64,000 nt of DNA, from NCBI GenBank assembly GCA_020851735.1, contig JADZCD010000008.1, positions 1 to 64,000 of the forward strand. Reading direction: 5' to 3'. Source of the stretch: Phycisphaeraceae bacterium. Lineage in GTDB: Bacteria; Planctomycetota; Phycisphaerae; Phycisphaerales; Phycisphaeraceae. The translations under genes were made by a program, and so were the position numbers. The notes beneath the pieces are model-generated. The model made no database searches. It saw only the letters and a list, made by a program, of their open reading frames with translations, and was not told the origin of the DNA. Shown here piece after piece: positions 8,892 through 52,464 of this stretch; position 1 is the first letter of the stretch, and each line of letters opens with the position of its first letter.

Positions 8892-9989
8892 TTACCCCAA
8901 TCGCTGATTTGCCACGTTCATCTCCGCCCCGCCATAAAACTCATCCACCACCGCGCGCCACTGCGAGGAGTTGTGCACGGCGATAAACGCCTTGGCCACC
9001 GCCTCTGATTCAGGATGGTGCCGCGAAAACTTGATGCCGAATTTGCGCATGGTCATGGACGCTTTTCTCTCGCCGTGCAACCGGCAGGAAAGCTCAAAGT
9101 GCTCCAGCAGCACCTGCCGCTGCTGGGCGATGCTCGGCCCACGCCCCGCTCCCTCCCGATCGCCGTTCGCCAGCGCCCTGGCCTGCGCGAAAATCCACGG
9201 ATTGCCGATGCACCCCCGCGCCACCGACACCGCCGCCACCCCCGTCTCGGCAATCATCCGAAAAATGTCTTCCACCGCGAAAATATCCCCCGACCCGAAA
9301 ATCTGAAACGCGTCAGCCCCGCCTGGAACGATGGGGCCGGCATCGGTAGCCCCGCATGGGATTGCGGGGACGGTTCGTCGCGGCACGTACTGCTTGACCA
9401 ACTCCCGCAAAAACTCCCACCGCGACGGCCCTAGGTACTTCTGCTCCACGCTCCGGGGGTGCACCGTCGCCGCCGCATACCCCAATTCCATGACCTTCTG
9501 GAAAATCTTGTGGAAATCCCGTTCCGCCTCCGCCGAATCGTCCGTCCCCCGCCGCAGCTTCACGGTCGCCGGCACCTCCGAGGGCACCGCCTCCCGCACC
9601 GCCTCCAGCACCGCCACAGCGTCGTCCGGCCGGCAGAGCAGGTGCCCCCCCCGGCTGCGCCGCCTAACCTTCTTCACCGGGCAGGCGATGTTCACGTCGA
9701 TCACGTCGTAGCCTAAATTCACCAATATTTTCGCTGCTTGGGCGATTTCTTTAGGGTGCGAACCCATCAATTGCCCGGCAATCGGGTGGTCTTCCGGGTC
9801 CAATTCCACCTCTTTTAACCCCTTGCCGCCGTTGATCAGGAACACGTCCAGCATGGCCTCGGTCACGCAATAGGGACACCCATGCCGGCGGGCCACCAAG
9901 CGCATAGCCGCGTCGGAATAGCCGGCCAGGCCAGCCTGGAAAAAGGGAGCATCAAGCGTGAGGTTGCCGATCGAAGCCATCGGGGTCAT
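8892..9989 (-). CDS. dus: tRNA-dihydrouridine synthase with repeat-derived insertion
   Basis: An FMN-dependent enzyme that reduces uridine to dihydrouridine in tRNA D-loops. The N-terminus (PFFQAGLAGYSDAAMR) and DVNIACPVKKV with the catalytic Cys are typical of Dus proteins, as are VKLRRG, TVHPR and the late phosphate-binding segments GSGDI and ARGCIGNPWIF. The start is the ATG at 9989 or the one at 9980. Between the strand after VPRRTVPAI and the GSGDI loop sits an extra piece of about 20 residues, translated from two copies of a dispersed palindrome (9315-9340 and 9348-9373). The frame is kept, so the enzyme may still work. It is divergent from the lipoprotein gene at 10055. Confidence 0.88.
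   Translation of the reverse strand: MTPMASIGNLTLDAPFFQAGLAGYSDAAMRLVARRHGCPYCVTEAMLDVFLINGGKGLKEVELDPEDHPIAGQLMGSHPKEIAQAAKILVNLGYDVIDVNIACPVKKVRRRSRGGHLLCRPDDAVAVLEAVREAVPSEVPATVKLRRGTDDSAEAERDFHKIFQKVMELGYAAATVHPRSVEQKYLGPSRWEFLRELVKQYVPRRTVPAIPCGATDAGPIVPGGADAFQIFGSGDIFAVEDIFRMIAETGVAAVSVARGCIGNPWIFAQARALANGDREGAGRGPSIAQQRQVLLEHFELSCRLHGERKASMTMRKFGIKFSRHHPESEAVAKAFIAVHNSSQWRAVVDEFYGGAEMNVANQRLG
9315..9373. repeat. two copies of palindromic family A inside dus
   Basis: Two adjoining copies of the element with consensus AGCCCCGCATGGAAATGCGG plus GGCCGG (9315-9340 and 9348-9373). Each has CCCCGC/GCGGGG-type arms around a short central loop. The second copy keeps a near perfect stem. The same element is intergenic at 10565, 12301, 15619 and 19061. 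Confidence 0.85.
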
Positions 9990-10054
9990 TATAAGCTGGC
10001 AAATACCAGCCTCGGCCCAAATCGCCCGGGCCTTCTTGCCCACAGGACCTTGCC

Positions 10055-10529: not shown

Positions 10530-10640
10530 GACAAAACACTTCCGGGGGGGGCACTTCCGGGGATAGCCCCACATGGAAATGCGGGGCCGGCCTTGGAGGT
10601 TGGGATCAGCCCCCGGCTCTGCCGGGGGGTACGCATCGGA
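10530..10640. repeat. intergenic cluster of palindromic elements
   Basis: The gap between the lipoprotein and pgi (10502-10706) is largely repeats: two ACTTCCGGGG units (about 10541-10565), a family A palindrome (10565-10590, one arm base changed) and a family C palindrome, CAGCCCCCGGCTCTGCCGGG and its tail (10607-10634). Nothing else is recognised in this gap. Confidence 0.8.
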
Positions 10641-10706: not shown

Positions 10707-12296
10707 ATGGACCCATCCTTGCTCTGGCAACGCTACCAGCAATACCTCTGCTCCTGCCCCTCCCTGGGCCTGCGCCTGGACATCTCGCGGATGACCTTCA
10801 GCCCCGAGTTCTTTGCCCAGATGGCTGACCTAACCGCCCTCGCCTTCGACGGCATGGCCCAACTCGAATCCGGCGTCATTGCCAACCCCGACGAAAAACG
10901 CATGGTCGGGCACTACTGGCTGCGCGCGCCCGACCTCGCCCCCCAGGACGACATCGCCCGGGAAATTGAACAAACCATTCAGCGCGTTTCCGCCTTCGCC
11001 GCCAAAGTCCACTCCGGACAGATCAAACCTCCCACCGCCAAGAAATTCACCGACGTGCTGGTCGTCGGCATCGGCGGCAGCGCCTTAGGCCCGCAACTGG
11101 TCGCCGACGCCCTCGGCGGCTTGGCCGGCAAGAAGGACAAGCTTACCCCTCACTTCCTGGACAACACCGATCCGGACGGCTTTGACCGCGAGCTGTCCCG
11201 CCTGGCCGGCAAGCTCAAAAGCACCCTCGTGCTGGTCATCTCCAAATCCGGCGGGACCAAGGAAACCCGCAACGGCATGCTCGAAACCCAGTGGGCCTTT
11301 GCCCGCAAAAAGCTCGCCTTCGCCCCCCAAGCCGTGGCCATCACCGGGCGCGATTCGGAATTGGACAAGCTGGCCGTCAAGGAAGGCTGGCTCGACCGCT
11401 TCCCCATGTGGGACTGGGTCGGCGGGCGCACCAGCGTACTCTCTGCCGTCGGCCTGTTACCTGCCGCCCTCCAGGGCCTGGACATCGCCGGCCTGCTCGA
11501 CGGCGCTGCGGAAATGGACCGCCTCACCCGCCAGCGCGACGCCCAACGCAATCCCGCCGCCCTCCTGGCCCTGATGTGGCACTTTGCCACGGCCGGCAAA
11601 GGCGAAAAACAGATGGTCATCCTGCCCTACAAAGATCGCCTCCTGCTTCTTTCCCGTTACCTGCAACAGCTGGTCATGGAATCGCTGGGCAAGAACCGCG
11701 ACCTGGACGGGCACGACGTCCTGCAGGGCTTAACCGTCTTCGGCAACAAGGGCTCCACTGACCAACACGCCTTTGTTCAGCAATTGCGCGACGGCCTGGA
11801 CGATTTCTTCGTCACCTTCATCGTTGTTCTGCAGGACCGCATGGGCCCTGCCGCACGCTTGGAGCAACCCGTCGAGCCCGGCACGACCAGCGGCGACTAC
11901 CTCAACGGCTTCTGGCAGGGCACCCGCCAGGCTCTATTTGAAAGCGGGCGCGGGTCGATCACGCTGACGCTCGAAAAGTTTGACGCCCGGGCCTTGGGCG
12001 CCTTGATCGCCCTGTACGAACGCGCGGTCGGTTTCTACGCGGAATTGGTGCACATCAACGCCTACCACCAGCCCGGCGTCGAAGCCGGCAAGAAAGCCGC
12101 CGCCGCCGTCTTGGATCTACAAAAGAAAGTCGTCGCCGCCCTGCAGGCCGACGCGCAACCCGCCACCGCTGATCAAATCGCCCAACGCCTCGGGCAACCC
12201 GACCAAGCCGAGGCGGTCTTCCACATTCTCGATCACCTGGCCGCCAACAAACGCCACATCGCCACCCGCCGCGGCAAATTCGTCTGGAAAAAATAG
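10707..12296 (+). CDS. pgi: glucose-6-phosphate isomerase
   Basis: Interconverts glucose 6-phosphate and fructose 6-phosphate in glycolysis and gluconeogenesis; cytoplasmic. Two SIS domains are visible: [18 protein letters not shown] with the phosphosugar loop, then [16 protein letters not shown]. Later blocks [25 protein letters not shown] and [20 protein letters not shown] contain the conserved active-site His and Lys. The last 60 residues form a small helical extension ([21 protein letters not shown]) with a winged-helix look, ending in RRGKFVWKK. Length 529 aa fits the shorter bacterial form. No strong Shine-Dalgarno sequence precedes the ATG, and the upstream gap is packed with repeats. 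Confidence 0.95.
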
Positions 12297-12300
12297 ACAC

Positions 12301-12326
12301 AGCCCCGCATGGAAATGCGGGGCCGG
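12301..12326. repeat. palindromic family A, intact copy
   Basis: A perfect 8-base stem CCCCGCAT/ATGCGGGG around GGAA, directly after the pgi stop codon. The rest of the gap to 12434 holds a short heptamer array (CCCTAGA units near 12364-12380) joined to TTCTATTGG. As the stem lies just past pgi it might act as a transcript-end hairpin, but it lacks a T run. Confidence 0.85.
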
Positions 12327-12434: not shown

Positions 12435-15389
12435 TCACTGCTTGCCCCCTACTGCTTCCAGGTTTTTCGCCAGCGCCTCCTCCGGCACCGCCTCGTGCGT
12501 AATCACCGTCAACACCGGATTCCTCAAATACTTGTCCACCACCGCGCGCAACTCCTGGGCTGTCATGTTCTGCACGCTTTTTAAAAACTGCTCGCTCGTA
12601 TCGGCCGGCAAACCATAGAGCAGGTCCAGCGCCGCCTCGGCCGCGCGATCCGCGTTGGATTGTTTGCCTAAGAATTCCTCGGTCAGCACCGCCGCCTTGG
12701 CCCGCTGCAGTTCCGCCGGGCTCACTTCCCCACGCCGGGCCTTCCGCACCACTTCCGCCGCCGCCGCCAGCGCCGCCGGCACGTCCCCCGGCTTGGTATT
12801 AAAGACCAGGCAGAAGTACCCCGGCACCCAGCCTGTCGCCTGACTGGCCCCCACCGCATACGCCAGCCCCTTCCCTTGCCCGCGTAGCGCCTGCTCCAAC
12901 CAGCCGGTGGGAAAATCGCTGATCACCTTGCTTAGCACCTGCATCGCCGCGTAATCCGGACTGGATCGGACGATCCCCGGGCCAAAACCGATCTGCACCG
13001 CCGCCAGAGGCTTGTCGGTGGGGAATTGCCTCGCCTGCGCCACCGGCGCCTGCGGCTGCGGCGGATTGAACTCCACCTCCGGCTTGGCCGGCAGATCCGC
13101 GAACAGCTTGGTCACCGCGTCCAGAACTTCCTTCGGGTCCACGTCACCGACAATCGCCAGCACCGCCTCCGACGCCGCCAGGTGTTGGCGATGAAATTGC
13201 GCCAATTCCTCAGCCTTAAACGACGCCACCGCTTCCCGCCGACCTTCGGACACCTGCGCCCACACGTGCCCGCCGTAATACGACGCTAAGAATCGCGTCC
13301 GCAGTTCGCCGCTCCACTGGTCGAGGCGACGGTTAATAGCCGCCAGCAAGCGATGCTGAATCTTCTGCCATTCCTCCGCCGAAAAAGCCGGGTGCAACAC
13401 CACGTCGCTGACCAGCTCCAAAACCTTCGGCCAATCCTCGGTAAGGCAGGTCGCCTGCACGTAAAACGTGTTGTTGCCCCCCGAACTGGCCAGGCCCGCC
13501 CCTAAGTCTTCCACTTCGTTGGCAATCTGCTGCGCCGTGCGCGTGGCCGTGCCTTTAATGAGCATCGTGGCGGCGGCGTTGGCCAAACCCTCCCGTCCGG
13601 GCTGATCCGCCAACAGACCGCCTAGGTGATAAAACTGCATCGCCACCCCCGGCACCACCGTGCTCCGGCCGATCAGCACCCGCAGCCCGTTGGGCAACGT
13701 GTAAAGCACCGGCCGCTCGACCACCGGCGGTGCCGCGGCGTTCTGGGCGCGGGTTAACGCATCATTGAGCCGCGCCAGCCAGGCGGTGTTATCCAGCTCC
13801 AGCGCATCCGAAGGCAAATTCGCCTGCGTCGCCGCATCGTCATTGCGTTTGAGCGTGGTGATGGGCTGATCCGGGCTGGTCGGCCGCAGCGTCACGGTGA
13901 TGAGCCGCTCCGCCTTTAGAAACTTTCGCGCCACGTCCTGCACTTGCTCGCCGGTGACGGTCTGGATCTGCTGGGCATAGCGCCTTAGGTAATCCGGATC
14001 GCCCATGGCAATCACGTCATCCCCCAAGCGACTGGCCAAACCCTGCGCCGTCTGAGCGCTTAACGTCACCGCCGCCAGCGTCTGCCGCTTGGCCCGCGCC
14101 AGTTCGTCTCCCGACACACCCTTTTCCGCCAACAGCCGCACTTGCTCGAGAATCAACTCGCGGGCCTTACTGATCGCCAGCTCATGCTGCTGCTTGTCGT
14201 CCGAACTTTGCGTCGCCGCAGTTGCACTTGCGGAGGTTCCGGGGCTTCCGGGGGCGGGGGCGGGGGCGGGGGCACTTCCGGGGGCGGGGGCGGGGGCGGG
14301 GGCACTTCCGGGGGCGGGGGGGGTGATTTCAGCGTCGATGCCGAAGTAGCCTTTACCCCAGGAGAAGCTCAGGTTATACGCGTCGATGCTGTTGACCGCC
14401 CGATCCTGATCGCGGACGGTGCGATTGAGCCTGCTCGACTCGCCGCCGCCAAGAATCTGCGCCAGCAGATCCATCGCGTAATCGCCTTCCTCCGCCAGTT
14501 GCGTGCCCGGCCAGGCCAGGCGCAGCCGCGGCGCCCGCACGTCCGCCACGCCCTGCAGGTTCCGCGGGCCCGTCAGCTCCGGCTCACGCGGAAACGCCAG
14601 CTTGGGCAATTCCCCCGCCGGCTTTTTGCCCCACAAGCCGGCGATCTGATCCACCACCGCCTGCTTGTCCACGTCGCCGACCACCACAAAGACCATGTTG
14701 TTCGGCACGTACATGCGGTGATAGAACGCCTCGATCTCTTCGCGCGTGATCTTTAAGAACTCATCCAGATACCCGATCGTCGGATGCCGCGCCGGGTGCG
14801 CCTGATATCTTCCCTGCTGCGTCAGCTTCCACATGATTCTGCCGGGGTCGCCCTGACCCATGTCGAATTCATTCTGGATCACCTGCCGTTCACGCTCGAA
14901 TTCCGTCGGCGTGATCAGGCTGTTCTGCATCCAGTCCGAAAGCAGCTCCACCGCCGTGCCGGCATAGGGCCGGGTGGTGTTGATGTAATAGCTGACGGTG
15001 TTCAGCCCCGTCATCGCATTGGTCTGGGCCCCGATCTGCCCGAGAATCTGATTGCTCTCCTCTTCGCTGCGGGTGGAGGTTGTTCCGCCCGCCAGCAGAT
15101 GCTCTAAGAAATGCGACAGCCCCGCCCCCACGTGTTCCTGCTCATAAATCGAGCCGGTCTTCACCCACACCTGGGCGGAAACCACCGGCGTGGTCTTCAG
15201 TTCCTGGACCATCACGATCATGCGATTGGGCAAAACCACCAGCAGCCGATCCTCTCGCTCTTGCAGCACGCGATATTCCTTGTCCGCAGGTTGTTCCTGG
15301 CCCGCCGCCGGGCCGGCCAGAATAAAAGGTAGAGTCAGCAGCAGGACCGATCCCATCCACGCCCAGCCTGATTTAGTGTGGCACGTCAC
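12435..15389 (-). CDS. secreted M16 zinc peptidase (two fused halves)
   Basis: A 984-aa insulinase/pitrilysin-family metallopeptidase. After a signal peptide (about residues 1-30) the first half has the inverted zinc motif HFLEH (residues 93-97) with the distal zinc Glu region ERERQVIQNEFDMG. The second half repeats the fold (LPNGLRVLIG) but has ANAAATML where the motif should be, so only one site is active, as in fused M16 proteins. Residues about 350-395 are a Pro/Ala/Gly/Ser linker made by the dispersed CCCCCGGAAGT repeat (14225-14330). The start is GTG at 15389, supported by AGGGAGGA seven bases upstream. It should act in the periplasm or outside the cell. Confidence 0.9.
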   Translation of the reverse strand: MTCHTKSGWAWMGSVLLLTLPFILAGPAAGQEQPADKEYRVLQEREDRLLVVLPNRMIVMVQELKTTPVVSAQVWVKTGSIYEQEHVGAGLSHFLEHLLAGGTTSTRSEEESNQILGQIGAQTNAMTGLNTVSYYINTTRPYAGTAVELLSDWMQNSLITPTEFERERQVIQNEFDMGQGDPGRIMWKLTQQGRYQAHPARHPTIGYLDEFLKITREEIEAFYHRMYVPNNMVFVVVGDVDKQAVVDQIAGLWGKKPAGELPKLAFPREPELTGPRNLQGVADVRAPRLRLAWPGTQLAEEGDYAMDLLAQILGGGESSRLNRTVRDQDRAVNSIDAYNLSFSWGKGYFGIDAEITPPAPGSAPAPAPAPGSAPAPAPAPGSPGTSASATAATQSSDDKQQHELAISKARELILEQVRLLAEKGVSGDELARAKRQTLAAVTLSAQTAQGLASRLGDDVIAMGDPDYLRRYAQQIQTVTGEQVQDVARKFLKAERLITVTLRPTSPDQPITTLKRNDDAATQANLPSDALELDNTAWLARLNDALTRAQNAAAPPVVERPVLYTLPNGLRVLIGRSTVVPGVAMQFYHLGGLLADQPGREGLANAAATMLIKGTATRTAQQIANEVEDLGAGLASSGGNNTFYVQATCLTEDWPKVLELVSDVVLHPAFSAEEWQKIQHRLLAAINRRLDQWSGELRTRFLASYYGGHVWAQVSEGRREAVASFKAEELAQFHRQHLAASEAVLAIVGDVDPKEVLDAVTKLFADLPAKPEVEFNPPQPQAPVAQARQFPTDKPLAAVQIGFGPGIVRSSPDYAAMQVLSKVISDFPTGWLEQALRGQGKGLAYAVGASQATGWVPGYFCLVFNTKPGDVPAALAAAAEVVRKARRGEVSPAELQRAKAAVLTEEFLGKQSNADRAAEAALDLLYGLPADTSEQFLKSVQNMTAQELRAVVDKYLRNPVLTVITHEAVPEEALAKNLEAVGGKQ
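14225..14330. repeat. ACTTCCGGGGGCGGGGG tandem tract in M16 gene
   Basis: Three spaced copies of CTTCCGGGGGC followed by runs of GGGGGC, read from the minus strand as alternating Pro-Ala with PGS at each copy. The same unit is intergenic at 10541 and 26735-26890 and coding in several other genes. Confidence 0.8.
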
Positions 15390-15776
15390 CGCGAGGTCCT
15401 CCCTGTCAATAGGAGGATTCTAGCGTCGCGCCGCCTTGGCGGGGGATATTAATCTGTAAACGGCAAATGGCGCGTATCGGGTGGTGAATGCCGAACGAAA
15501 ATCCGCATCTCAGGTCTGGAGTCTAGGGTAGAGGGTCTAGGGTAGAGGGTAAGAAGGAGTGAGGCATCAGAAATGAAAGTTCAGCGCCAATTCGCCCTCC
15601 AGATGAAACTCCTATCACAGCCCCACCTGGAAAGGTGGGCCGGATTTGAATATCAAAATCAGCCCCCAGCTCTGCCGGGGGATACGTCAGCTCAAAGTGT
15701 CAGCCCCCGGCTCTGCCGGGGGATACGTCAGCCCCAACTTCCAGCCTATCTTCCATGGCCGCCAAGGCGGTACGGC
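15390..15776. repeat. intergenic repeat cluster
   Basis: The 387-base gap between two minus-strand genes has no gene. It holds a heptamer array (GGGTCTA and GGGTAGA units, about 15515-15551), one variant family A palindrome (CCCACCT/AGGTGGG arms, 15619-15643) and two family C palindromes (15660-15690 and 15701-15730) separated by 10 bases. The Shine-Dalgarno sequence of the M16 gene lies at its left edge. Confidence 0.8.
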
Positions 15777-18909: not shown

Positions 18910-19150
18910 CTTGAAGGAAGGGATGGGCATGGGGATTAGGGATTGGGGGTTGGGGGTTGGGGAACGGTAACCCAATTCCGCGTGAAACAGCCGCGGGCAG
19001 AAGCCCGCGGTTAAACCTACCGAACCACCACAAATCCCCACCCCGCCAATGCCCCACCTTAGCCCCGCATGGAAATGCGGGGCCGGCTCCTATCCCCCCC
19101 AAAAATCCCATTTGACGACTAAGAACAAAACAGGGATACCCTTGCCCCAT
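18910..19150. repeat. intergenic repeat cluster after tRNA-Arg
   Basis: Holds a heptamer array (GGGATTA, GGGATTG and GGGGTTG units, about 18931-18961), a family E palindrome (GCGGGC-AGAA-GCCCGC with the tail GTTAAACCTACCGAAC, 18984-19024) and an intact family A palindrome (19061-19086). A reading frame through the last element joins the downstream gene but is not its true start. Confidence 0.8.
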
Positions 19151-20140
19151 ATGCCCTCTTCCCCTCCGCTATCCCCCCGTGCACGTTTCGCCGCCGCCCT
19201 CGACCGCCGCCCCCTGCCGGGCCGCGTCCCCCACTTCGAACTGGTCTTCTTCCTGACCATGGAAGCCTTCGGCAAGGTCCACCCCTCTCACCGCAACTAC
19301 AGCCAGTGGATGCAGATGACCCCCGCTGATCGCGACCTGCACCGCCGCGACATGGCCCGCATTTACGTGGACACCGCCGACCGCTACGAACAAGACGCCA
19401 TCCTGCTCCACCCCAACCCCGACTATGCCGACTTAGACCAGCGCGTCGACGAAGAAATACGCCTGATCGACGCCGTACGCGACCTCTCCGGCAATCGCTA
19501 CTTTCTCCTGTTGCACGGCGACCCGACCTTCGGCATCCCCACCGGGTCGGACATGGAACGGCGCAGCCTGCAAATGGCCGAAGCCCCCCACGAACTGGAC
19601 GCCGAGGGTGCCACCCGCGTGGACTACTGCATCCGCCGCGCCGAAAAATTGGCGGCCCACGGCCGGCTCGACGGCTTTGCCCTCTGTTCCGATTACTGCT
19701 TTAACACCGGGCCGTTCTGGCCCGTCCCCCTCTTTGGACGCCTCATTACCCGCCACTTAAAGCGCGTCATCGCCGCCTATCGCGCCCTGGGCTTTTACAC
19801 CATCAAACACACCGACGGCAACATCATGCCCATCCTCGACCACTTGGTCGCCGCCAACCCCCACGCCCTGCACTCCTTGGACCCCCAGGGTGGCGTGGAC
19901 CTCGCCCAAGTCGTCAAGCTCGTGGGCCACCAAGTCGCCCTCTGCGGCAACGTGGACTGCGGCCTGCTCCAGACCGGCTCCGACGAACAATGCGCCGCCG
20001 CCGTCCGCTCCACGCTGGCCCAAGGTCTCAAAGCCCCCGGCTACATCTTCGGAACCAGCAACTGCATCTACACCGGCATGGAACTCAAACGCTACGACCT
20101 GATGCTCCACATCTGGCGGAAAGAGGGCATCCGCCCCTGA
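19151..20140 (+). CDS. URO-D superfamily protein (methyltransferase-like)
   Basis: A 330-aa protein of the uroporphyrinogen decarboxylase/corrinoid methyltransferase superfamily. Visible blocks are FELVFFLTMEAFGK at the N-terminus, LCSDYCFNTGPFW, the barrel segment KHTDGNIMPILDHLV with the metal-site-like His-Thr-Asp, SLDPQGGVDLAQVVKLVG, CGNVDCGLLQTGS and a late IFGTSNCIYTGM. The true haem enzyme HemE carries a different N-terminal signature, so a role in one-carbon or corrinoid metabolism is more likely; the substrate is unknown. The start at 19151 follows the repeat cluster; an upstream in-frame start would translate a palindrome. It converges with the GDSL gene. Confidence 0.75.
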   Translation: MPSSPPLSPRARFAAALDRRPLPGRVPHFELVFFLTMEAFGKVHPSHRNYSQWMQMTPADRDLHRRDMARIYVDTADRYEQDAILLHPNPDYADLDQRVDEEIRLIDAVRDLSGNRYFLLLHGDPTFGIPTGSDMERRSLQMAEAPHELDAEGATRVDYCIRRAEKLAAHGRLDGFALCSDYCFNTGPFWPVPLFGRLITRHLKRVIAAYRALGFYTIKHTDGNIMPILDHLVAANPHALHSLDPQGGVDLAQVVKLVGHQVALCGNVDCGLLQTGSDEQCAAAVRSTLAQGLKAPGYIFGTSNCIYTGMELKRYDLMLHIWRKEGIRP

Positions 20141-35608: not shown

Positions 35609-35624
35609 TCCCCGCAAGAAGAAT

Positions 35625-35755
35625 GGCGAATGGCGAGTGCCGAATGACGAATGAAACCAAGGGTCTAGGGTCTGGGGTAGAGGGTAGGACCGACATTCGA
35701 CATTCGACATTCGACATTCGACATTCGACATTCGACATTCGACATTCGACATTGA
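35625..35755. repeat. heptamer composite element with perfect GACATTC array
   Basis: Left arm of GAATGNC-type 7-mers (35625-35655), core GAATGAAACCAAGG (35649-35662), GGGTCTA/GGGTCTG 7-mers (35661-35690), then eight perfect GACATTC units (35692-35747) and a partial ninth. Left and right arms are complementary, so the whole can fold into a long hairpin. Confidence 0.9.
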
Positions 35756-35771
35756 ATTCTATGGCCTTCGC

Positions 35772-39689: not shown

Positions 39690-39744
39690 GAATAGACCTC
39701 GATGGAATTGGAAGTTGAAGCTGACCTTGGGAGAGTCCGGAAGA

Positions 39745-39893
39745 ACACAATGACGAATGACGAGTGCTGAATGCCGAGTGCCGAATGTCGAATGCCGAAT
39801 GCGACCCAACGCCATACCCCCAACCCCAGACCCTAGACCCTTGGTTTCATTCGCCATTCGACATTCGTCATTCGTCATTCGCCACTCATCCCT
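39745..39893. repeat. heptamer composite element (inverted orientation)
   Basis: GAATGNC-type units (39751-39808), CCCTAGA-type units and CCTTGGTTTCATTC core (39838-39852), then GNCATTC units to 39893. The GNAT gene uses a TGA inside this element as its stop codon. Confidence 0.88.
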
Positions 39894-40744
39894 CCCCCCC
39901 TTCGCTTGTCATACAGGTAATACACCGGCGTGCAAAACAACCGCACCCGCGCATCCCGCAAATGGTCCTTAGGTTCCTTGGAACTATCCGCCGCCCGGCC
40001 CGCTGTCCGGCGATGCCACCGGCGCAGTTCCGCCAATAACCAACGGTTTTCCGCCGGCGGCAACTGCGCCACGCGCTGCCAGGCCCACGCGATATCCGCC
40101 AAATCTCCAACGGACAATCCCACCCGCGCCAGAGCCGCGCTCAGTCGCAGGTCATGCTCGTGGGCCGGCCGGCGATAGGCGGTCATGCCCGCACGCTCAA
40201 AAAACGGCGCCACCTCGCCCATGGCTGCCAGAGCTTCGGTGTAAATCGTCGTGGCGGTGCGCAAGGCCTCCTTCACCAGCGCCACCGCCCAGCCCGCGCC
40301 GCGATAGCGCGGGTCAATCACCACCCGACTGATGCAGCGCAATTCGTCAGCCAGCAGCGCCGCCCGGGCCGCCATGTTCTTCTGCCGACCGTAGCGGCTT
40401 CCTAACGCTTGGTCCCGCAGGCGACCATTGAGCGTCGGCATGGACTCGACCAGCACGCCCGCCGCCATGGAGGAATGCCCAATGCCCAGTGGCGAATGAC
40501 CAATAGAAGACGGGGGCTGGGGTCCAGGGTCTAGGGTCTGGGGTTTTAAGACAGGCCGGCTTGGGCCTTCGACATTCGGCACTCGCCACTCGTCATTTGC
40601 CTTCCCCAGAAATCGCGCCATGGCTGACGGACGCGCATCATCCACCAGCACCAGCACCCGTGTGGCCGTGGCCGGCCGACCGGCGCGATAGTGGTGACAC
40701 GCCAGCGCGTCGTAGTCCGCGATGCTTCCTGCCTGGATTTTCAC
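39875..40744 (-). CDS. GNAT-type acetyltransferase-like phage protein with heptamer insertion
   Basis: A 289-aa protein. CISRVVIDPRYRGAGWAVALVKEAL is the GNAT acetyl-CoA binding loop (R/QxxGxG/A variant), and APFFERAGMTAYRRP is the late GNAT strand and helix. It follows an ABC ATPase gene by 13 bases; COG2401 proteins are one-chain fusions of just such an ABC ATPase and acetyltransferase, so the pair is probably the split form. Residues about 48-94 come from a heptamer composite element (40463-40603) and break the expected GNAT N-terminal region. Start is GTG at 40744. The C-terminus runs into another heptamer element. Confidence 0.75.
   Translation of the reverse strand: MKIQAGSIADYDALACHHYRAGRPATATRVLVLVDDARPSAMARFLGKANDEWRVPNVEGPSRPVLKPQTLDPGPQPPSSIGHSPLGIGHSSMAAGVLVESMPTLNGRLRDQALGSRYGRQKNMAARAALLADELRCISRVVIDPRYRGAGWAVALVKEALRTATTIYTEALAAMGEVAPFFERAGMTAYRRPAHEHDLRLSAALARVGLSVGDLADIAWAWQRVAQLPPAENRWLLAELRRWHRRTAGRAADSSKEPKDHLRDARVRLFCTPVYYLYDKRRGGGMSGE
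40463..40603. repeat. heptamer composite element inside GNAT gene
   Basis: CAATGCCCAATGCCCAGTGG-type left arm, core CCAATAGAA, GGGGTCCAGGGTCTAGGGTC 7-mers, then GACATTCGGCACTCGCCACT right arm. Same layout as 35625 and 39745, with an open reading frame through all of it. Confidence 0.85.
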
Positions 40745-43013: not shown

Positions 43014-43293
43014 TGGCGAATGCCGAGGGGCTGATTTCCGATTGGCGATTGCCGATTTCCGATGTGAAGGAAAAATCCATTTGGTTTTCCACAACCGAGA
43101 GCGACGGCGTACGGCGGGTTGGGTGCGTGGAATTCCGCTTGGGAACGAAAACCATGGGGAATGAAACACGGAATCTGCATTTTAGAATCGGATGAGGCCG
43201 TGCCGTTTGGGCCTCTCACATCGGCAATCGCAAATCGGCAATCGGCAATCTTGCCTTCGACATTCAACATTGCCTTCCCCATCCCCTACTCTC
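43014..43293 (+). repeat. long inverted repeat, left copy
   Basis: About 270 bases: GATTGCC/GATTTCC heptamers, a unique centre of about 120 bases (from GTGAAGGAAAAATCC to GGAATCT), then GGCAATC heptamers. Its inverted partner lies at 44160-44440, with about eight mismatches over some 230 bases counted by eye. Confidence 0.88.
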
Positions 43294-44159: not shown

Positions 44160-44440
44160 GGGGATGGGGAAAGACATTGTTGAATGGCGAATGCAAGATT
44201 GCCGATTGCCGATTTGCGATTGCCGATGTGAAAGACCCAAACGGCAAGGCCTCATCCGATTCTTAAAACCAGATTCCGTGTTTCATTCCCCATGGTTTTC
44301 GTTCCCAAGCGGAATTCCACGCACCCAACCCGCCGCACGCCGTCGCTCTCGGTTGTGGAAAACCAAATGGATTTTTCCTTCACATCGGAAATCGGCAATC
44401 GCCAATCGGAAATCAGCCCCTCGCCATTCGCCATTCGTCA
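44160..44440 (-). repeat. long inverted repeat, right copy
   Basis: Inverted copy of 43014-43293 with the same heptamer edges and unique centre. Together the two copies enclose the lipoprotein and holin-like genes. Confidence 0.88.
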
Positions 44441-47370: not shown

Positions 47371-47742
47371 ATCTCCAACCTGGTTGCCCCGGCAAGGAGC
47401 GTGGGTGAGGGGGAAAGAGGAAGTTAGGAATTGGGAGTTAGGAGTTAGGAGTTAGGGATAAGACAAGGTCGAATGGCGAGTAAAATTCGAATTCCGGGGG
47501 TTCCGGGGGTTCCGGGGGTGGGTGCCACACAGCAGCCCGCAGGGTGCTGTGTGCTGGTTTTCGTATCCCGATCTGATTTGGGAATCGAATCATGCGGCGA
47601 AATTTCCGCCTTTCATATCAGCAGTCAAAAACCGGCCATCAGCACACAGCACTTCCGGAGGCCCAAAAGATGCTGTGTGGCACCCAACATCAACCATTCG
47701 ACATTCGGCATTCGGCATTCAATATGGCCTTTTGCTGGCTTC
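47371..47742. repeat. repeat-filled gap with heptamers and two family D palindromes
   Basis: AGTTAGG heptamers (about 47425-47455), GAATGGC unit, TTCCGGGGG units (47501-47518), family D palindromes at about 47520-47558 and 47640-47685, then GACATTC/GGCATTC heptamers (47696-47730). Layout again is left heptamers, centre, complementary right heptamers. Confidence 0.85.
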
Positions 47743-50067
47743 CTAACGCCCACTCCACTTCACTACTTCGCACAATTCCACCCCCGCGGTCTCCCAGGGC
47801 GTTACCGCCTGCGACCAGAAACTTTGCCAGATCAAACCCCCGTTGCCCGTCACCCGCCAGGCAAAACGCACGCTCCCCTGGGTCGGCGCCTGGGCGTAGG
47901 CCTCCACCCAGTTTTCCTGCGCCACGGAGTAAAACGTGGTGATCACCTCGGCCGCTTGCTCTTCGCGCTGGCGCAAGAGCTCCACCTTTTTCACCCCGCA
48001 CTCCCCGGCCGGGCCCGGCCAGACCAGGCGCAACTGCAATTGCCCGTCCTCCACCCAGACGGGCCACCCCTGGCTCTCGGGCCACACGGCCGGCAGGGGC
48101 GGAGCAACCGCCTTTCCGCCCACGCGCGCGATCCGCACCGAGCGCGTGCCGGCCTCTGAGCGACCCCATGCGTCCACTTCACGCACCAGGTAATGAGCGA
48201 TTTGCCCCTCCGGCGGTTGCCAAGACTCCTCGACCAAACACGCTCGACTATCGCGCGGCAAGATGGCCAGCCAGCTCGCGGCGCCAAAGGATTCCAGATT
48301 CTCCAGCGGGCCGAACACGTCCCACCCGTCCTTGGGGATCGGCAACGTGGCCAGAGGATCGCCGGCCAAAAACATGGCGCCTTGCGGATTGGCCACGGAC
48401 ACGAGCCACGCTTCGCTGACTGTCCACCCCTGGCGCAGCGCCGCTAAGAAACGCCCCAAGTCAGGCACGTCGTCAGCCAAGGCTGGGCGACTGCTGACCC
48501 CCGCGGCTGCGTAACCGGCGGACATGGCTGCGCCCAACCACGAGGAGACATTCCATAGGCGCATGGAACCTCCCGTGGCTGCGGTGGCGTTTAACGGCAC
48601 GCAGACCGCACGCGGCCCGTTAGGCTCAGCAAAGAATCCGCTGGCCGGCAGCGGTCCCCCCAATCCCCAGAACACGCTGTCACGGCGAACGGATGAATAG
48701 TCCTCATCCCCGCCCCCGGAAGCACCACCCCCGGAAGTCGCGCCCCCGGAAGTACCGCCCCCGGACGCCCCGGAAGCAGTCAACACATTCACAGGCAGAC
48801 GCAACCGCTGTCGCTCGCCTCCGCCTCCGGAAGGTCCCCCGCCTCCGGAAGTGCCGCCCCCGGAAGCCCACGCGACGATCGAATCCTGCCACGCTTCTTC
48901 CGTCGGATGGCTCGCTCCTCGCGCGTCCAGCCAGATCTGCCCGAAATCCGCCGTGGCGGCGTCGATCTCTGCCAGCCCATCCGCACGGTCGCTTAACGAC
49001 TTGGCTGACGCCAGGTCCGGACCGTCGATGCGTGCCGTCAGGCGATAGGCGCCCATGTTCTCCCGCCTGGGCCGTTGCAGCGGCGTCACGCCAGCCAGGG
49101 CATTGGCGGCTGGCTCCGATCCCCCATAGGCCAGACGGCTGGCCAGCGCGTCCTTGAGCCCGTCCGCCCGCTGCACGTAGCCCGGCACGCCGTGCCCTAA
49201 GACAAATCCCAGTACCGTCTGGTCCAAGCCGTTGACCTGCAGATAGTCCGCCACCGCCTGACGAAAAACCTGATATTCCTCCTCGCTGATGACTTCCAGA
49301 CTGCTGAGCGCAAGCCCCACGAAATTGGCCAAAGGCATCCGTCGCCGCAAACGGTAATCATCCGCCCACGCCGCCGCGTCGGCTGACAAGCGGTTGTACA
49401 CCACCAGCCAGCGCGTCGGCTCAACAGCGAAGTTCCCTTCCGGGGGCGGGGGCGGGGGCACCGTCACGGGCCCCAAATAGTTTTCCGCGATGGCCCATTC
49501 ATCCAGACTAAGTCCTCCCATCGCCCCGACACCCTTACCGATCACCCCCAACTGAAACCGTCGCGTCGCTGCGTCGAACCAATCGCCGTCGATCTGGTCG
49601 GCCCGGCAGCCGTCCAACCAGAGTTCCGCGCGGCCCGTGGTCGCGTCCAGGCTCAACTCCACGCATCGCCACGGCATGCCGTGATGGAGCTGGGCGGACA
49701 GCTTCCCCCGGCCTGCCAGCATCGCGGAAATCCTCTGGCCTGCCGCATCCAGCTTGACGTGAAATGTTTCCGCGCCCGCTGCATCCAGACCGCGCAGGAA
49801 TACCACCGCGCCGCCGCTTAAGCCGCCCGGCTTGACCATCACCCGGCTGTGGAAGCGGGCCATCAATTCGCCCGCATCGTGCTCCAGATACTCGCCGGCT
49901 GTTCCCTGCCCCAGCGTCACGTGCAGCCCGCGCCCGCTTGCCTTCCGGTCGGGAAAGGCTGCGGAATTCGCTTGCGTGAGGAGGCCAAAGCTCTCCACCG
50001 CCATCCATTGGCGGCCGGGCCAATGTTGGTTCGACCAATAGTTACCGGGCCAGTATGCCGTACGCAT
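47743..50067 (-). CDS. LamG-like plus TIGR03790-like phage-block protein
   Basis: A 774-aa protein. Residues about 25-205 form a concanavalin/LamG-like sandwich (GRGLHVTLGQG ... SLDEWAIAENYLG). A Pro-rich hinge then leads to a TIGR03790-like domain (from RWLVVYNRLSADAAAWADDY through RMPLANFVGLAL to VLGFVLGHGVPGYV). TIGR03790 is described as occurring only in species with an exosortase. Residues about 402-456 are Gly/Thr/Ser-rich repeat-derived sequence. The C-terminus holds a fibronectin-like part. The start at 50067 has AAGGA upstream. It probably belongs to the particle surface or tail. Confidence 0.7.
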   Translation of the reverse strand: MRTAYWPGNYWSNQHWPGRQWMAVESFGLLTQANSAAFPDRKASGRGLHVTLGQGTAGEYLEHDAGELMARFHSRVMVKPGGLSGGAVVFLRGLDAAGAETFHVKLDAAGQRISAMLAGRGKLSAQLHHGMPWRCVELSLDATTGRAELWLDGCRADQIDGDWFDAATRRFQLGVIGKGVGAMGGLSLDEWAIAENYLGPVTVPPPPPPEGNFAVEPTRWLVVYNRLSADAAAWADDYRLRRRMPLANFVGLALSSLEVISEEEYQVFRQAVADYLQVNGLDQTVLGFVLGHGVPGYVQRADGLKDALASRLAYGGSEPAANALAGVTPLQRPRRENMGAYRLTARIDGPDLASAKSLSDRADGLAEIDAATADFGQIWLDARGASHPTEEAWQDSIVAWASGGGTSGGGGPSGGGGERQRLRLPVNVLTASGASGGGTSGGATSGGGASGGGDEDYSSVRRDSVFWGLGGPLPASGFFAEPNGPRAVCVPLNATAATGGSMRLWNVSSWLGAAMSAGYAAAGVSSRPALADDVPDLGRFLAALRQGWTVSEAWLVSVANPQGAMFLAGDPLATLPIPKDGWDVFGPLENLESFGAASWLAILPRDSRACLVEESWQPPEGQIAHYLVREVDAWGRSEAGTRSVRIARVGGKAVAPPLPAVWPESQGWPVWVEDGQLQLRLVWPGPAGECGVKKVELLRQREEQAAEVITTFYSVAQENWVEAYAQAPTQGSVRFAWRVTGNGGLIWQSFWSQAVTPWETAGVELCEVVKWSGR
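48700..48862. repeat. CCCCCGGAAG unit array inside the TIGR03790-like gene
   Basis: About eight copies of CCCCCGGAAG(C/T) with short spacers. Here they are read as SGGG/TSGG, unlike the PAPGS reading in the M16 gene. Confidence 0.85.
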
Positions 50068-50373
50068 GGTTGAGACTGTCCTTGACAAGAAATCGCCGGC
50101 GCGGGCGGTTCTGCACACCGCAGGCTTCGCGCCCCCGCAAATGCGGTGTGGCAACCAAAAACAATGACGAATGGCGAATGGCGAATGACGAATAAAGCCA
50201 AGGGTCCGGGGACTGGAGACCAGAATCTGGGGTAGAGGGCATGAGTGCGGGCGTCACACAACATTCCGCAGGATGCCGCGTGTCTTGGCTATCGATCTTG
50301 AAACGGACCTGGATTGAACAGAAAGGTCGCATTCGTCATTCGTCATTCGTCATTCTTGAATTCCCCCCAAGGG
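50068..50373. repeat. gap with family D-like palindromes and a heptamer composite element
   Basis: Contains a family D relative (GCACACCGCA ... TGCGGTGTGGC, about 50112-50151), GAATGNC heptamers with a CCAAGGGTCC core (50163-50240), another D relative (about 50254-50285) and GTCATTC heptamers (50331-50354). No gene. Confidence 0.8.
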
Positions 50374-52464
50374 CTATTGAATAACGCTCGTTTGTCGTTC
50401 GCCGTCCAAGTTGCCCAGCGCCACGGTCACTTTGGGCGTCGTGCCGTTGCGTTTATAGAACGTGACGGTGTTGCCGCTGCGCGCCGAAACACCCAGCATC
50501 ACCGCCAGGATCGACTCCCACAGCGAAGAAAGATCCACGCCGTCAATGGTTTGATTGAGCAGGCTGCTGGCGGCAGCGCCCGGCAATTGCGCCAGCAATC
50601 CATCCAGCCGGCTGTCCAGATGCGCCTGCAGGGACAACAAATCCCCGCTGACGTTGAACATTTCGCGCGGACCGACGGAGGGCGTGGAGGCATCGCGGGC
50701 CGCCCACAGGGCGTCGTATTCCACCCGCACCGCGGAAGTCCCCGCCTCGCTCAGCCGGCTCACGGCGCTGGGTTCCAGACCCAGGCCGGTGCCTTCGTCC
50801 AGCTCCACCTTGCCCGCGTCGTTGCTGTAGCCGGCCACCGCGTGGGTGGCGCTGTCCAAGTTAAAGTAGGCGTTGTGCCGCAGATTAAGGGCGGTGTTGT
50901 TCAAGCCGACGCGCATCCAGGCCGGCCCGAAGCCTTCGCAGGAAACGATGCTGTTGACCAGTTCCGCGTCGGGGCTGGTGCTGGTCGTGGGATTGCTGCC
51001 GCCGTTTTCATAGTCCAAGGTGAAGTTGTACTGCCCGTTGCCCACCACGTGGATGTGCGTGTGGTAAATCCGCGGGTGGCTGACGGTGGCATAGGCCGGA
51101 GCGTTGTAAAGGCCCTGCCGCGCCGCCGCCCCCGTGGTGCGCACCATGATGCGGCCGTTGATCAGGTAGCCGGAGTGCGGAATCTGGGCTTCGGACAAAG
51201 CACTTAAGCTGCCGTGCATCGTGACCTCCCAATCGGGATTGATGCGGCAATTGTCGGTCATGAACAATCGGGCGCGGGCGTTGGCGGAGATGCGGACCAT
51301 TTCATCGACGAAAAATCCCCGCACCTCGCTTAGGCGCGTGGCGGCTGGATTGCTGCTCCAATAGCCCGGATCACCACAGCCAAAAGCATGATCCGCCGTC
51401 CGGCAGCCCCAGGCGATCAGCAGCCGATAGACGCTGGTGTTGGTATGCCCGTAGAACGCCCGGGCGTCGCGCACATAGTCGGCAGTACCCACGGGCAGCG
51501 TTCCGAAACGCGCCGTGCAGCCGTGAAAAATCGTCTCCTGGTCGCCGCCGTAGACGTAGCTGTTGAAAATCGTCTCCCCGCCCGAACCGTTGTCGATGGT
51601 GAATCCCGCCTGACAATCCATGAACAGGCTGATGCCCCCGCTGTCGCCGCTGCCCCCGCCGCCATAAAACGCCAGCGCGTGCGACGAGCTGTAATAGCTT
51701 TCGCAGCCGGTCACCACCGCCGCGTCCGTGCCCTTAACCGCCACGCGCAGACCGTAACGCTGATTGCCGGCATTGCCCGGATTCATTCCCCAGCCGTCGC
51801 ACCGCAATTGATCCGCCCGGCAACCGTCGGCGCTCACCAGCACGCCGTCCACGTCATTGGTATAAGCTGCCTCCAGCGTGTCTTGCGGATCGCCCCCGAC
51901 ATTCACGTGCAACGTGTAGCTGCCCGCTGATCCCGACAAGTACCAGCTGTGCGCGGTGGCTTCCACTTCCTGCGTGCTGCTGACCCTGCGCAGCGGATTA
52001 AACGGATCGTCGATGGTGCGCAACCACGCGACCTGGTTGAACTGGCTCTGCGTGTAACGGCTGCCGGCCCCCAGTTGCCAGATGCTTGTCAGCACCAGAA
52101 AGCGGCTGAATAACGGCTTGGCGCCGCTGCCGTAAGCGTCCACCGTAATGCCCGGCTTGTTGAGCGTCAGCCCGCTGGTGGCGCTGCGATAGATCCCGCC
52201 GCGCTTAAAGCGAATCCGCAGCCCCGCGGTCGTCGGCGTCCAGGCATCGATCTGGCTCTGCGCCTCGGCCAGCGTGGCCAGGGGATTGTTCAGCGACCCG
52301 TCCCCATTTCCGGGGGTGGCGGAGGAATCGACGTACAGCGTCGTGCCTCTTTCCAACGGACACTCCGCCAGCCTGGCGGCCAACAAATCGAAATACCAGC
52401 GGCGAAACGCGAAAGTCGTCGGCTCGGGCACAGCGCCCACTAAAGTGCTATATGAACTGGACAT
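50374..52464 (-). CDS. beta-helix tail spike or fibre protein
   Basis: A 696-aa protein. After about 60 residues, TLYVDSSATPGNGDGSLNNPLATLAEAQSQI opens a right-handed parallel beta-helix of the pectate-lyase-like kind, seen as repeated Gly/Asn/Val turns to about residue 560. The C-terminus (FYKRNGTTPKVTVALGNLDGERQ) resembles C-terminal tips of phage tail proteins. Such spikes bind or cut host surface polysaccharide. AGGAAGGA before the ATG at 52464 fixes the start. It is followed at once by the LamG gene on the upstream side. Confidence 0.75.
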   Translation of the reverse strand: MSSSYSTLVGAVPEPTTFAFRRWYFDLLAARLAECPLERGTTLYVDSSATPGNGDGSLNNPLATLAEAQSQIDAWTPTTAGLRIRFKRGGIYRSATSGLTLNKPGITVDAYGSGAKPLFSRFLVLTSIWQLGAGSRYTQSQFNQVAWLRTIDDPFNPLRRVSSTQEVEATAHSWYLSGSAGSYTLHVNVGGDPQDTLEAAYTNDVDGVLVSADGCRADQLRCDGWGMNPGNAGNQRYGLRVAVKGTDAAVVTGCESYYSSSHALAFYGGGGSGDSGGISLFMDCQAGFTIDNGSGGETIFNSYVYGGDQETIFHGCTARFGTLPVGTADYVRDARAFYGHTNTSVYRLLIAWGCRTADHAFGCGDPGYWSSNPAATRLSEVRGFFVDEMVRISANARARLFMTDNCRINPDWEVTMHGSLSALSEAQIPHSGYLINGRIMVRTTGAAARQGLYNAPAYATVSHPRIYHTHIHVVGNGQYNFTLDYENGGSNPTTSTSPDAELVNSIVSCEGFGPAWMRVGLNNTALNLRHNAYFNLDSATHAVAGYSNDAGKVELDEGTGLGLEPSAVSRLSEAGTSAVRVEYDALWAARDASTPSVGPREMFNVSGDLLSLQAHLDSRLDGLLAQLPGAAASSLLNQTIDGVDLSSLWESILAVMLGVSARSGNTVTFYKRNGTTPKVTVALGNLDGERQTSVIQ

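Follow-up and report, generated by a model that had tools for sequence, protein, structure and literature searches.

The window, i.e., the whole 64,000-nucleotide stretch that was analysed, represents positions 1 to 64,000 of contig C8 in a draft genome (G000) of 3,561,976 bases in 69 contigs. Near its start lies dus (Table 1), whose product matched the Pfam Dus family in a profile search (E = 4.3e-42) and scored 208.8 bits against the NCBIfam DusB model TIGR00737, below the cut-off of 293.3. Its closest named homologues came from Phycisphaeraceae and other planctomycete genomes, and the known structures 1vhn, T. thermophilus Dus (3b0p) and E. coli DusB superposed on our model of the protein, which would be an active Dus enzyme. 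The gene sits within a 98-kb contig, and its frame was coding by score on both sides of the segment described below.

The initial annotation had placed two palindromes of one repeat family in frame within dus, and both were recovered: they match the 26-nt consensus AGCCCCGCATGGAAATGCGGGGCCGG, against which all mismatches in Table 1 were counted, and stand in tandem, in frame and in the same orientation with a spacing of 33 bp. The four places that it had listed as intergenic members of the family all carry the repeat as well, the one at 15619 as a covariant; the copy at 19061 probably lies upstream of the true start of the adjacent open reading frame. A further candidate, at 47994, was rejected as no true member. 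In 60 dinucleotide-preserving shuffles of the window, searched on both strands, there were zero matches at five or fewer mismatches, with 0.05 matches per window at up to six and 0.28 at up to seven. Because an Rfam scan of the window returned two tRNAs only, the repeat is not explained by known RNA families.

Both dus copies have decayed. When folding was compared with that of shuffled sequences, the copy at 9315, with three mismatches in the stem, had lost its hairpin (z = +0.41) and that at 9348 was weakened (z = -2.78), compared with about -3.8 in two perfect intergenic copies and -1.01 in the copy at 10565. This is thus probably an old insertion that has since drifted, which leaves its boundaries uncertain, and the pair probably arose by local duplication.

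Table 1. Positions of dus, REP copies and other repeats in the window
Feature	Position	Strand	Remarks
dus, tRNA-dihydrouridine synthase (DusB-like)	8892-10043	minus	likely start, ATG at 9992
REP unit 1 in dus, 33 bp	9315-9347	plus	decayed; minus-strand reading AGPIVPGGA; 5/26 mismatches
REP unit 2 in dus, 33 bp	9348-9380	plus	minus-strand reading TVPAIPCGA; 3/26 mismatches
Dus residues 207-226 (from ATG 9992)	9315-9374	minus	loop predicted to be disordered, after helix 192-202 and before strand 230-234
REP copy, intergenic	10565-10590	plus	1 mismatch
REP copy	12301-12326	plus	0 mismatches; 5 bases past stop of gene 10707-12296
REP stem covariant ACCT/AGGT	15619-15643	plus	7 mismatches; one base missing; same covariant flanks transposase gene
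REP copy	19061-19086	plus	0 mismatches; 5' side of ORF 19049-20140
M16 peptidase gene	12435-15389	minus	
Three CTTCCGGGGGCGGGGGC units in M16 peptidase gene	14230-14327		in frame; encode GSAPAPAPAPGS
Second palindrome family, TCAGCCCCCGGCTCTGCCGGGGGGTACG	10606, 15659, 15700, 29931, 34632		five copies
Third palindrome family, GTTTAGCGGGCGATCGCAGATCGCC	24177, 28036, 34673, 38213, 59181		five copies
Seven-base arrays	35615-35769, 39740-39909, 47420-47473, 50154-50377		CATTCGA, GAATGGC, GTTAGGA and similar
Inverted repeat, 267 bp	43014-43280 / 44167-44433		arms 95% complementary; 886 bp spacer

The inserted loop of Dus

The loop from the QKYxGP motif to GSGD is 49 residues long in this protein, compared with 25-30 in 38 of the 41 homologous loci that could be read (80 were surveyed, and 39 dropped for non-matching motifs), in agreement with the initial estimate of about 20 extra residues before GSGDI. 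Subtracting 66 bp (2 x 33 bp, or 22 codons) gives 27, within the normal range, although this is arithmetic and no empty site was observed. The inserted residues were missing from the homologues compared, none of which shared them in a form lacking nucleotide similarity to the repeat. In the nearest homologue, from G028 (on the same contig as L009; 77% identity), the loop has a length of 40 and is occupied by an unrelated heptad array, GTACCCT/GTACCCC. The Dus loop of G021 (L013 2866-3062) contains a long expansion; as it was found in one copy in the G021 genome, it was rejected by this test as a repeat of its own genome.

An AlphaFold model of Dus, built with 32 sequences, had a mean pLDDT of 84.1, and values fell below 50 over the inserted residues. 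These are predicted to form a disordered stretch that follows a helix and precedes the strand running into the GSGDI motif, as would be expected if, as first suggested, the palindromes are tolerated as a flexible loop. In a TIM barrel, the loop from a helix to the next strand points away from the active-site side. When Dus was aligned with its best PDB chain, 29 residues of the query were unaligned at the insert, compared with two in the chain.

The repeat element and a flanked transposase gene

Across 102 contexts the element is about 30 bp long and consists of a hairpin, A-GCCCCGCAT-GGAA-ATGCGGGGC, followed by CGGYTYG. Its 5' edge is sharp (A in 99 of the 102) and its 3' tail is also defined. 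The draft genome (3.56 Mb) contains 122 matches at up to two mismatches, a figure that includes some places counted on both strands, compared with zero for a reversed-pattern control. Stem covariants that remain perfectly paired also occur (GCAT/ATGC, ACCT/AGGT, ACGT/ACGT and GGAT/ATCC). The features of REPs were found here in that a palindrome of 20-40 bp is present at high copy, lies mostly outside genes and has copies flanking a Y1 transposase gene. The tag at the foot is not the GTAG (or CGTC) of the REP superfamily; among 100 copies it was ATAG in 18, ACAG in 16, TCAG in 14, TAAG in 12, CCAG in 10 and GTAG in 9. The consensus has no stop codon in any of the six frames, so that copies landing in genes, as a multiple of three bases, can be translated.

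Many of the REP copies are situated close to contig ends in the draft genome (e.g., C2:136, C6:476, C18:170, C29:144, C52:150 and C66:1), where, beside other repeats, they probably broke the assembly. Another abundant repeat is the GC-rich coding repeat CTTCCGGGGGCGGGGG, with 409 matches at up to one mismatch compared with one in the control; the units found in the M16 peptidase gene of the window are of this type. Two further palindrome families have five copies each in the window. The covariant at 15619 precedes two members of the second family, those at 15659 and 15700, and one copy of the third lies close to another of the genome's own Y1 genes (L166).

Six Y1_Tnp genes are present in the draft genome. 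One, on contig C28, has three family copies to one side of it and two to the opposite side, an inverted pair among them. Its neighbours are a gene that we take to be scpA-like and a lipoyl synthase gene (with radical SAM and lipoyl synthase domains). In the lipoyl synthase-like gene beside the transposase (L127 2271-3383), the terminal residues and the stop codon are supplied by a REP copy. By itself the C28 protein scored 22.6 against Pfam Y1_Tnp, and 23.2 together with its in-frame neighbours, which is borderline (threshold 23); it scored 22.3 bits against the NCBIfam RAYT model NF047646, below the cut-off of 80. In an alignment of 21 transposase sequences, the HxH motif (H84 and H86) and the putative catalytic tyrosine of the YLPxH motif (Y146) were invariant. 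Because a phmmer search of the PDB with the C28 transposase gave no match at an E value of 1 or better, the protein was modelled instead. The model (pLDDT 94.1) matched 2xm3 (E = 2.5e-5) and 4er8 (E = 1e-4), TM 0.56, and its predicted fold is shared by IS200/IS605 TnpA and by TnpA_REP in complex with a REP hairpin (4er8).

Palindromes with a perfect stem stood on both sides of 10 of 29 Y1 loci, their sequences varying by genome; the 29 include three loci at contig edges (L186, L187 and L190) whose flanks were incompletely scanned. In three transposase genes, L201 and L202 of G014 and L203 of G025, an in-frame palindrome of the AGCCCCGCA type separates the HxH motif from the tyrosine motif, and in one of the three it has decayed.

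In-frame copies in other genes and other genera

We examined 101 copies, i.e., those in 60 stretches around copies elsewhere in the draft genome together with the copies in the window (including the non-member at 47994). Sixteen lie within 14 genes that have Pfam domains and score as coding on both sides of the element; of the other 85, 14 were too close to edges to decide and for 71 no position within a gene was found. As the stretches were chosen around mainly perfect copies, the share of in-gene copies is a minimum. Two genes carry two copies each, dus and a gene for a DHH-family protein. The single-copy genes encode a soluble transhydrogenase-like flavoprotein, alanine racemase (alr), PriA, Tgt, glycerate kinase, TsaD, a PHP-domain protein, a VKOR-type protein, a GH20 hydrolase, a UPF0102 protein, a 2-hydroxyacid dehydrogenase and a group 1 glycosyltransferase. 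The element occupies a linker in the VKOR-type and GH20 proteins and does not fall within the matched domain. Six open reading frames were kept off this list: L126, L143, L161 and L162, in which the element is near or before the likely start, and L118 and L119, which gave no Pfam match.

The 16 copies use five of the six frames, reading AGPAFPCGA in six, APHGNAGPA in five, SPAWKCGAG in two, PAPHFHAGL in two and PRMEMRGR in one. Among the 101 we found no copy that splits a gene, with coding in shifted frames on the two sides. Two cases flagged as disruptions were rejected, the frame being the same on both sides; at L133 there are stops beside the element and two adjacent genes, and 47994, as above, is not a member.

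Alignments with solved structures broke at the insert in all eight of the proteins compared, out of the 14. Besides Dus, the numbers of unaligned residues in the query and in the best chain, respectively, were 45 and 0 for Tgt, 61 and 7 for TsaD, 40 and 0 for glycerate kinase, 50 and 2 for the transhydrogenase, 29 and 1 for the dehydrogenase, 46 and 24 for alanine racemase, and 157 and 23 for PriA. Inserts other than that of Dus are mostly composites with CTTCCGGGGGCGGGGG-like units that encode stretches rich in Pro, Ala, Gly and Ser. Since the REP in most of these genes is part of a longer, repeat-rich insert, the REP alone does not explain them.

The corresponding loops of other genera were then compared. 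In Tgt, the loop from IMAFDDCPP to ERT(L/V)RW was 27-81 long in the 22 of 24 loci that were read, and in five of these it contains a palindrome. That of G000 is its own REP. In G014 it is GCCCCGCATTTACATGCGGGGC, a variant abundant in that genome (59 matches); in G018 it is an inverted doublet of AGCCGCCGCGTCACACGCGGCGG, with 212 matches in G018 compared with 11 for the control; and in G011 it is CCTGCGGTATCCACCGCAGG, of the type that flanks the G011 transposase gene, with only four matching places in G011. The Tgt loop of G039 (L243) contains the palindrome GAGACGC-GCAA-GCGTCTC. The hairpins of G000 and G014 are nearly identical but differ in reading frame, a difference that speaks for separate insertions.

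Five further Dus loci yielded four readable loops (that of G036 was not read). The Dus loop of G026 has a length of 120 and holds four palindromes; one pair among them, CACTGGCGG-N5-CCGCCAGTG, is present at 139 places in the G026 genome, with no match in G000, G014 or G018. Heptad arrays were found in the Dus loops of G018 and G009 and, in a test run on nine chosen loops, in the TsaD loops of G006 and G009, where 21 of 21 periodic positions matched. Palindromes of 8 bp or more were absent from TsaD loops outside G000 (23 of 24 loci read). In numerous relatives the loops are short and free of repeats, which counts against a universal rule. With that reservation, we see an even chance that the Tgt loop, the Dus loop before GSGDI and the TsaD loop before SGGHT are recurrent landing places in this planctomycete order, at which each lineage would independently insert its own REP, REPIN or heptad in any frame that fits, mobile DNA thus repeatedly supplying disordered linkers. 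If so, a family-wide survey of such loops would provide a natural map of insertion tolerance.

Origin of the inserts

It is very likely that the dus palindromes represent a tandem pair of a non-autonomous mobile element of the REP type, whose spread is probably due to a Y1 transposase, and that insertions of it that break a fold are purged, while those in tolerant loops are kept. Anatomy shows both the connection to the transposase and the tolerance of the loops. A tyrosine transposase (Y1, HUH) resembling RAYT/TnpA_REP would probably mobilize the hairpin, which, by analogy with IS200/IS605, would land in single-stranded DNA. Copies would land in genes as they do elsewhere; selection would then remove those that break the fold and retain in-frame copies in loops that tolerate changes in length, where they would decay as presumably neutral inserts.

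A rather unlikely alternative is that the repeat spread within genes by replication slippage, recombination or gene conversion, without any landing by a transposase, the dus pair having formed by local duplication, over 33 bp, of a copy that was there before. The spacing of exactly 33 bp and the shared orientation of the dus copies are consistent with this, as is the embedding of many in-gene copies in CTTCCGGGGGCGGGGG arrays. However, genera differ in the REP held by the same loop, the similar Tgt hairpins of G000 and G014 use different frames, and the arrival of a first copy would still be needed.

It is distinctly improbable that the inserts have been kept for a function, such as tuning of translation by an mRNA hairpin or provision of a contact surface in RNA-modifying enzymes. 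Three of the 14 genes do encode tRNA-modifying enzymes (Dus, Tgt and TsaD), and PMC3733652 makes a case that targets among repair genes are non-random. Against this, the dus hairpins have decayed, the 16 copies are spread over five of the six frames, the corresponding loops in relatives either contain unrelated repeats or lack repeats, and the Dus insert is predicted to be disordered. Much less probable still is an artefact of assembly across repeats: the many family copies near contig ends indicate that repeats do disturb assembly, but the dus copies are identical neither to the consensus nor to each other, lie in the interior of their contig with a coding frame on both sides, and occupy a loop that is expanded in independent genomes. 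That an ordinary, lineage-specific Dus loop resembles the repeat by chance has a negligible probability, since, although loop length varies across the family and the G021 expansion is single-copy, chance similarity of the dus copies to the repeat was rejected by the 60 shuffles, in which there was no equal match, and the copies are in tandem and have perfect counterparts in other genes.

For mobile REP-type insertion, the preferred reading, there are precedents, and intragenic REPs as a kind are already known. PMC3733652 describes in-frame REPs from Opitutus terrae, Rickettsia conorii, Xanthomonas and other bacteria, tRNA pseudouridine synthase genes being among those affected; it suggests that these form flexible linkers or loops, and reports that recB of two Xanthomonas species was struck at about one site. 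Like those GTAG/CGTC REPs, as described there, the present elements are short, high-copy palindromes that are mostly extragenic, sometimes in frame and often paired. They differ from that description in that the foot is variable, with AG nearly constant and GTAG in a minority; that the inserts are mostly composites with the GC-rich coding repeat; and that Tgt and Dus loops hold genome-specific REPs in several genera. The same source describes Rickettsia palindromic elements, which are likewise selfish palindromes in frame in many housekeeping genes; by its description RPE-1 is longer, whereas the element here is about 30 bp and transposase-linked.

In comparison with the TnpA_REP/RAYT REPtrons covered in the sections of PMC6006769 used here, the present system has an HUH/Tyr Y1 protein with the same predicted fold, encoded by a REP-flanked gene. 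REPs in frame within the transposase gene, seen here in G014 and G025, have a counterpart in subclass 2.4 of that account. Unlike RAYTs as presented there, the proteins have mostly (T/N)HxH and YLPxH motifs, with a score below the NCBIfam RAYT cut-off, and the foot matches neither a constant GT[AG]G nor the class 3 CnGA.

By the definition in the portion of PMC12306157 consulted, REPs seldom overlap coding regions. They were named for their extragenic position, yet at least 14 genes of one genome carry a transposase-linked REP. Among the titles and abstracts listed in searches of open-licence PMC papers, we found no report of REPs in Tgt, TsaD or Dus. The present analysis adds how far such insertion extends within a single genome, that the foot varies, and that the same loops are occupied repeatedly by repeats specific to each genome. 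Comparison can now ask which protein loops tolerate any insertion, and whether REPs land at random and are filtered by selection. A caution is that protein models from such genomes include repeat-encoded linkers.

The heptad arrays resemble bacterial heptanucleotide repeats, in the accounts of these drawn on here, in that seven-base arrays are abundant in some genomes; they differ from those accounts in being found also in frame, in the Dus and TsaD loops of relatives. Four such arrays lie in the window itself, which also contains a long inverted repeat (Table 1).
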